Below, piece after piece: positions 79-1,442 of a stretch of DNA of 64,000 nucleotides; within the stretch, counting starts at the first letter, position 1; each line of letters begins with the position of its first letter. This stretch comes from Hylemonella sp. (GTDB taxonomy: Bacteria > Pseudomonadota > Gammaproteobacteria > Burkholderiales > Burkholderiaceae_C). The translations under genes were made by a program, and so were the position numbers. The stretch is from positions 806,001-870,000 of the forward strand of contig NZ_JAPZSV010000003.1 of NCBI RefSeq assembly GCF_027532185.1. Direction: 5' to 3'. The notes under the pieces were generated by a model, which did not search any database, was not told where the DNA came from, and saw nothing but the letters and a program-made list of their open reading frames with translations.

Positions 79-312
79 TCAGGCGGCCACGGCCAGCGGG
101 ATGCTGCGGCCGACGCCGAGCTCCTGGCTCAGGTGGGCGATCTTGGGGCCGCCGCTGCGGCATTCGGACCAGAGCGCGCGGGCGCAGCCCTCGCACTTGC
201 CGCACTGGGTGGCCACGCCCAACTCGAGCTGGATGTCGTCGAACGCAGCGCCGGCACGGGCGGCGCGCGCAATGGTCTGGTCAGAGACGCGATGACAGAC
301 GCAAACAATCAT
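79..312 (-). CDS. bfd: Bacterioferritin-associated ferredoxin-like (2Fe-2S) protein
   Basis: MIVCVCHRVSDQTI...GVATQCGKCEGCAR; conserved CxC...CxxC spacing. Confidence 0.85.
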   Translation of the reverse strand: MIVCVCHRVSDQTIARAARAGAAFDDIQLELGVATQCGKCEGCARALWSECRSGGPKIAHLSQELGVGRSIPLAVAA

Positions 313-360: not shown

Positions 361-441
361 CTACAAATGCCAAGCCCATCCCCCTGCCCGGTCAGGGGTA
401 TCGATCCGTCAGAACTGGCCAAAACCCCAGGAACTTTGTGT

Positions 442-468
442 TTAGCACTCTCTCAAAGAGAGTGCTAA
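442..468. promoter_or_regulatory. CIRCE element (HrcA operator) upstream of rpoH
   Basis: TTAGCACTC-TCTCAAAGA-GAGTGCTAA, exact match to TTAGCACTC-N9-GAGTGCTAA; symmetry extends to 12-bp arms. Confidence 0.9.
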
Positions 469-500
469 TATTTGTGCCTGCTTCCGAAAGGAGTCCTGGA

Positions 501-1442
501 ATGACCGCTCTGACTGCTAACTCCGGTTCCGCCCTGGCCGTTGCCAACCCTTGGGGCCTGGTGCCCCCCCTGGGCAATCTGGACGCCTATATCACGGCCG
601 TCAACCGCATGCCCATGCTCACCCACGAGGAAGAGCAGGAGTACGCGCGCAAGTTCCGGGACACTGGGGATCTTGAGGCAGCCGGTAAGTTGGTGCTCTC
701 TCACCTGCGTCTGGTCGTCTCCGTCTCGCGCCAGTACCTGGGCTATGGCCTGCCCCATGGCGACCTGATCCAGGAGGGCAATGTGGGCCTGATGAAGGCC
801 GTCAAGCGCTTCGACCCCGACCAGGGCGTGCGTCTGGTCAGCTATGCGCTGCACTGGATCAAGGCCGAGATCCACGAGTACATCCTGAAGAACTGGCGCA
901 TGGTCAAGGTCGCCACGACCAAGGCCCAGCGCAAGCTCTTCTTCAACCTGCGCTCCAAGAAGCAGGGCTACAAGGCCGATGCCGCCGCCGCGGATGCCGC
1001 CACCCACCGCGAGACCCTGAGCGAGCAGGAAATCGACCTCATGGCCCAGGAGCTCAAGGTCAAGCGCGAGGAAGTCATCGAGATGGAAACGCGTCTGTCC
1101 GGTGGCGACGTGGCGCTGGACCCGGGCCCGGGCGACGACGGCGAGGACAGCTTCGGCCCCATCGCCTACCTGGCCGACGCCAACCACGAGCCCACGGCCA
1201 TGATCGAAGCCCGCCAGCGCGACCGCCTGGCCAGCGACGGCATCAGCACCGCCCTGGCCACACTGGATGCGCGCAGCCGCCGCATCGTGGAGGAGCGCTG
1301 GCTCAAGGTCAACGACGACAACTCGGGCGGCATGACGCTGCACGAGCTGGCCGCCGAGTACGGCGTGAGCGCCGAGCGCATCCGCCAGATCGAGGTGGCG
1401 GCCATGAAGAAGATGAAGGCCGCGCTGGCAGAATACGCCTGA
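501..1442 (+). CDS. rpoH: RNA polymerase heat-shock sigma factor RpoH (sigma-32)
   Basis: MTALTANSG...LVLSHLRLVVSVSRQYLGYGLPHGDLIQEGNVGLMKAVKRFDPDQGVRLVSYALHWIKAEIHEYILKNWRMVKVATTKAQRKLFFNLR; start set at ATG 501 after aaaggag. Confidence 0.97.
   Translation: MTALTANSGSALAVANPWGLVPPLGNLDAYITAVNRMPMLTHEEEQEYARKFRDTGDLEAAGKLVLSHLRLVVSVSRQYLGYGLPHGDLIQEGNVGLMKAVKRFDPDQGVRLVSYALHWIKAEIHEYILKNWRMVKVATTKAQRKLFFNLRSKKQGYKADAAAADAATHRETLSEQEIDLMAQELKVKREEVIEMETRLSGGDVALDPGPGDDGEDSFGPIAYLADANHEPTAMIEARQRDRLASDGISTALATLDARSRRIVEERWLKVNDDNSGGMTLHELAAEYGVSAERIRQIEVAAMKKMKAALAEYA

Follow-up and report, generated by a model that had tools for sequence, protein, structure and literature searches.

Title: A CIRCE operator upstream of rpoH in Hylemonella sp. 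and its relatives that probably overlaps sigma-70 and sigma-E promoters

Introduction

Regulation of rpoH, which encodes the heat-shock sigma factor sigma-32, by the HrcA operator CIRCE has a described counterpart in Geobacter sulfurreducens, for which a perfect CIRCE is listed at position -51 of rpoH (PMC545781, Table 8). Operator and target gene are the same as in Hylemonella sp. and hrcA is present in both, although the two organisms belong to different phyla, and the part of that account that deals with the rpoH CIRCE does not mention an overlap with a sigma-E promoter (PMC545781). A different input is described for Escherichia coli, where the P3 promoter of rpoH is a sigma-E promoter, as stated in an account of rpoH in Bordetella bronchiseptica (PMC3490749). 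According to the same account, SigE of B. bronchiseptica transcribes the promoter region of rpoH (named fam in this organism) in vitro. B. bronchiseptica belongs, like Hylemonella sp., to the Burkholderiales, and its SigE is an RpoE-type sigma factor. The passages on fam mention neither CIRCE nor HrcA (PMC3490749).

Control of rpoH by HrcA can hence be regarded as known or expected, and sigma-E transcription of rpoH as known in E. coli and Bordetella. The survey of beta, gamma and epsilon groups by Permina and Gelfand (J Mol Microbiol Biotechnol 2003, 6:174) probably lists rpoH for betaproteobacteria. For an element in which CIRCE and a sigma-E promoter are fused, a literature search, whose scope did not extend to this 2003 survey, returned no description. 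Here we analyze such a candidate element in Hylemonella sp. and compare it with the corresponding regions of related genomes.

The CIRCE Element and Its Genomic Context

The window, i.e., the whole stretch of DNA analyzed (64,000 nucleotides), had been predicted to carry a perfect CIRCE in front of rpoH. A pattern scan confirmed this, finding TTAGCACTC-TCTCAAAGA-GAGTGCTAA with zero mismatches at 442-468. The features of the region, in window positions, are:

430..436, + strand: candidate -35 element GGAACTT of a sigma-E (RpoE, ECF02-type) promoter, from motif scan and conservation
442..468, no strand: CIRCE, the HrcA operator, TTAGCACTC-N9-GAGTGCTAA, a perfect dyad kept upstream of rpoH in 147 of 147 family genomes
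442..447, + strand: candidate sigma-70 -35 element TTAGCA, in the left CIRCE arm
451..459, no strand: CIRCE spacer TCTCAAAGA, containing the candidate sigma-E -10 element
453..457, + strand: candidate sigma-E -10 element TCAAA, 16 bp after GAACTT and inside the CIRCE spacer
466..471, + strand: candidate sigma-70 -10 element TAATAT, formed by the end of the right CIRCE arm and the following NAT
489..493, + strand: ribosome-binding site AGGAG, from the sequence
501..1442, + strand: rpoH, heat-shock sigma factor sigma-32, 313 aa (TIGR02392, 397.3 bits against a cut-off of 323.1)

The operator lies just upstream of rpoH, as had been proposed, but the distance given then, 33 bp, has to be corrected to the 32 bases between its end at 468 and the ATG at 501. 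It is the sole match to CIRCE in the window at up to three mismatches, and none of 100 shuffles contained any match. At the same threshold the 3.33-Mb genome holds two matches, both perfect, one at rpoH and the other 88 bases upstream of groES-groEL (L002 1501-1527; G000:C7:182931-182957). A reversed control pattern of CIRCE gave zero matches genome-wide, and a rough estimate from base composition puts the number of perfect copies expected by chance at about 6.5e-6 per genome.

The original prediction depended on an hrcA gene elsewhere in the genome, and a profile search of the genome found exactly one, which is full-length (TIGR00331, 308 bits against a cut-off of 197.2; PF01628, E-value 4e-66). 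It is located on the same contig, about 66 kb from the rpoH CIRCE, and adjoins a gene resembling NAD kinase rather than dnaK. RpoE is also represented once above the cut-off of TIGR02939, in a cluster resembling fabF-orf-rpoE-rseA-rseB.

The rpoH element shares its intergenic region with a divergent gene on the minus strand (window 79-312) that encodes a 77-aa protein similar to bacterioferritin-associated ferredoxin (NF007803, below the cut-off). This gene is preceded by a stretch resembling a Fur box, AACCATTATCATTTGC (minus strand, 345-356).

Conservation of the rpoH CIRCE

Conservation was evaluated in a family set of 151 genomes sampled evenly across the family, with the rpoH upstream region read in 147 of them, and in a class sample of 60 genomes from other orders, one per family. 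CIRCE is present in all 151 family genomes, in almost all of them exactly twice. Its possible conservation across rpoH upstream regions, raised together with the original prediction, was borne out in the family, as all 147 regions contain the element at no more than two mismatches (113 perfectly). Other families of the order are similar, with an rpoH CIRCE at up to three mismatches in 39 of 40 genomes; shuffled upstream regions never came below four mismatches in 1200 tries. Within the class sample, the element was found in 44 of the 46 genomes that have hrcA versus 2 of the 14 that lack it (Fisher 5e-9, ancestry uncorrected), and it is this dependence on hrcA that speaks most strongly for the rpoH CIRCE being a working HrcA operator. 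Since it is kept in the family, the order and the class sample, the rpoH CIRCE can be regarded, as judged from genome comparison, as general among those members of the class that bear HrcA, and not as an oddity of the Hylemonella genome. The presence of hrcA, the family-wide conservation and the class-wide co-occurrence strongly support the predicted HrcA operator on rpoH.

The number of copies is higher than two in a few genomes, namely G145:C1 with four sites and G048, G050, G061, G091, G126, and G142 with three each. CIRCE-like sites upstream of rpoH (one and three mismatches) were seen in two genomes with no detected hrcA, L372 (G281) and L380 (G332), which may reflect incomplete assemblies or a recent loss of hrcA.

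In Hylemonella sp. the symmetry continues beyond the CIRCE arms, and the inverted repeat with 12-bp arms and a CAA loop is present just as it had been described. With a promoter located upstream, perfect arms of this length could base-pair in RNA, and the repeat might then be a hairpin or thermometer in the rpoH leader instead of a DNA operator. We regard this as very improbable, because it is the CIRCE arms that are conserved and not the extension toward the loop, because the site follows the presence of hrcA, and because the overlapping promoters considered below would leave most of the repeat untranscribed. A functional role of the extended 12-bp symmetry was rejected, as relatives do not conserve it, and the extension is probably incidental. 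The DNA operator is the reading followed below.

A Candidate Sigma-70 Promoter Within the Operator

A sigma-70 promoter of the form TTAGCA-18-TAATAT had been proposed to overlap CIRCE, and both hexamers are present at this spacing, each matching the sigma-70 consensus at four of six positions. Among relatives, the commonest form of the left arm with one mismatch is TTGGCA. The proposal gains support from the bases immediately after CIRCE, since NAT, which completes the motif TAANAT, is found at rpoH in 142 of 147 family genomes versus none of ten groESL copies. NAT is also kept at rpoH in genomes that lack RpoE.

These observations bear on a reading in which the region combines an HrcA site with a sigma-E promoter only, TAATAT being no promoter and basal transcription of rpoH starting elsewhere, for example further upstream. 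The match of the hexamers to the consensus is indeed only moderate, as this reading would have it, but a NAT present at almost every rpoH site compared and at none of the groESL sites would then be left unaccounted for, and its persistence in RpoE-lacking genomes, which need some promoter, argues in the same direction. We therefore hold this reading to be quite unlikely and retain a putative sigma-70 promoter inside the operator.

In ten genomes the groESL CIRCE lies 80-95 bases before groES, mostly right after a -10-like stretch containing TTAT, so that HrcA would act there at a promoter position unlike that at rpoH.

A Candidate Sigma-E Promoter Over the Operator

The pattern tested for sigma-E (ECF02) consisted of GGAACTT followed after 15 or 16 bp by TCNAA or TCTGA. 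In the motif scan the stretch GGAACTT-N16-TCAAA at rpoH reached the full score, 13.1; of the shuffled sequences, 99% stayed below 11.3. The strict motif GGAACTT-N16-TCNRA is not enriched in the genome, with only two occurrences and more for its reversed control, and the scan gave no evidence of a wider RpoE regulon that uses it; the second strict match lies inside a coding sequence. A possible site before the rpoE operon, GGAACCA-N15-TCAAA (L064), is located within the C-terminal coding part of fabF and was left out of the count.

Evidence for this promoter comes from the comparison of genomes. HrcA is not expected to read the CIRCE spacer, and conservation within the spacer therefore needs another cause. 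Such conservation is seen in the 77 family genomes with GAAC just upstream of CIRCE (group A), where columns 11, 12, 14, and 15 of the spacer are T in 90%, C in 84%, A in 70%, and A in 83%. Of the 52 occurrences of GAAC-N18-TCNAA in the family set, 42 share a single offset, -11 from CIRCE. A GAAC between -18 and -5 of CIRCE was found in 79 of 147 family rpoH regions versus a mean of 4.2% in control windows, and together with a matching -10 element in 68 of 147 versus 0.6%. The groESL copies of the same genomes provide an internal comparison, being the same operator for the same regulator: they lack NAT and their spacer is unconserved, and a sigma-E -10 element was present in the spacer of 0 of 36 of them versus 17 of 35 rpoH copies (p 4e-7). 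The original prediction of a sigma-70 promoter of rpoH that HrcA would repress is supported in part, through the conserved sigma-70 -10 element, but it had overlooked the putative sigma-E promoter with its -10 element in the CIRCE spacer.

The P3 promoter of E. coli rpoH has the same -35 element and the same 16-bp spacing. A profile search gave no HrcA match in E. coli and P3 is without CIRCE, whereas in Hylemonella sp. the candidate -10 element sits inside the HrcA operator.

Co-occurrence With RpoE and Shifts of Register

In the family set, 18 of the 151 genomes lack RpoE, and they do not cluster at one level of RpoH similarity but spread across its range. The upstream sigma-E motif occurs in none of these 18 and in 79 of 129 family genomes with RpoE (p 2e-7, ancestry ignored). 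The same is true of the class sample, with 0 of 6 RpoE-lacking versus 31 of 40 RpoE-bearing genomes (p 5e-4, ancestry ignored), and of the genomes with the closest RpoH alone, with 0 of 4 versus 62 of 73 (p 0.001, ancestry ignored). The upstream GAAC is absent from 11 of the 73 close relatives with RpoE (about 15%). The in vitro result with SigE of B. bronchiseptica may be taken as independent experimental support, from a nearby organism, for transcription of rpoH by sigma-E.

The model underlying the original prediction, a plain HrcA operator on a sigma-70 promoter of rpoH with an accidental GGAACTT/TCAAA match, has to be weighed against these data. It would accommodate the perfect CIRCE and the presence of hrcA, the fact that NAT is the more constant neighbor of the operator (142 of 147), and those RpoE-bearing relatives that are devoid of the sigma-E motif. 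An accidental match would, however, hardly recur at a single offset, and far more often than in control windows, across many genera and in other orders, nor would it be absent both from groESL CIRCEs and wherever RpoE is missing. We consider this model unlikely, and a sigma-E promoter laid over the operator in addition to the sigma-70 promoter remains the preferred reading.

The register of the motif differs among lineages. The -11 register of Comamonadaceae, with the -10 element wholly in the spacer, was found in Variovorax, Acidovorax, Comamonas, Hydrogenophaga, Polaromonas, Rhodoferax, Ramlibacter, Tepidimonas, and others. Public genomes hold at least 118 stretches with the exact pattern of this register; among the matches listed, rpoH follows in 113, at a median of 29 bases from the pattern end. 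No RpoH match qualified in the remaining five, and in at least four of these the site is near an edge of the fetched stretch. Outside the family the -35 element is placed four bases farther upstream, 39 of 85 genomes having GAAC exactly at -15, and the -10 element of this register consists of the last TC of the left CIRCE arm and the next three bases, mostly as TCTCA, TCTAA, or TCCAA.

About 30 family genomes have a downstream site ("type B") with GGAAC at +34 from the CIRCE start and TCTGA at +57, the presence of which follows that of RpoE. As TCTGA overlaps ATGTCTGA at the start codon in several genomes, the type B site may be leader or coding sequence and is tentative as a promoter. In two related genomes, L095 and L048 (G025, G139), GGAACAT-N16-TCCAA is found at +43 from the CIRCE start and is followed by an ordinary leader; it is a candidate for a sigma-E promoter that was relocated downstream of the operator.

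Proposed Mechanism and Implications

From the sequence comparisons we propose, with a probability of roughly 0.8, that the HrcA operator coincides with a pair of overlapping rpoH promoters, one for sigma-70 and one for RpoE/sigma-E, and that HrcA gates both. The genomes directly show the operator and promoter sequences, how far they are conserved, and that they co-occur with hrcA and rpoE; from this we infer HrcA binding, the activity and start site of each promoter, and titration by GroEL at this locus. Titration of HrcA by GroEL is established in other systems. Active HrcA, maintained in this state by GroEL, would mask the core of each promoter and keep rpoH expression low. When misfolded proteins occupy GroEL, HrcA would lose its activity and both promoters would become accessible. 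Under envelope stress RpoE could then add to rpoH output only while HrcA is off. As no HrcA target besides rpoH and groESL was detected in the genome, GroEL would feed back on its own operon and on the gene for sigma-32.

On a broader scale, and with less confidence, we find it fairly probable that HrcA-bearing Gammaproteobacteria (as defined by GTDB, with the betaproteobacteria included) have at rpoH a composite switch of ancient origin, whose HrcA operator and RpoE promoter share bases. The -10 element would have slid into the spacer in Comamonadaceae and GGAAC would have moved downstream in other members of the family. Such a switch would act as an AND-type gate, making activation of sigma-32 by envelope stress conditional on GroEL being occupied, and E. 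coli would have lost the gate together with HrcA.

The control of sigma-32 is taught from E. coli, whose rpoH has a sigma-E promoter and is without HrcA, whereas our data suggest that in many relatives that kept HrcA the sigma-E promoter is fused to the HrcA operator. The shifts of register, the loss of the motif with RpoE and the loss of CIRCE with HrcA can be arranged as an evolutionary series of this element. Sensors of GroEL load and of envelope damage would meet on a few dozen base pairs, and a single stretch of 42 bases could combine both.
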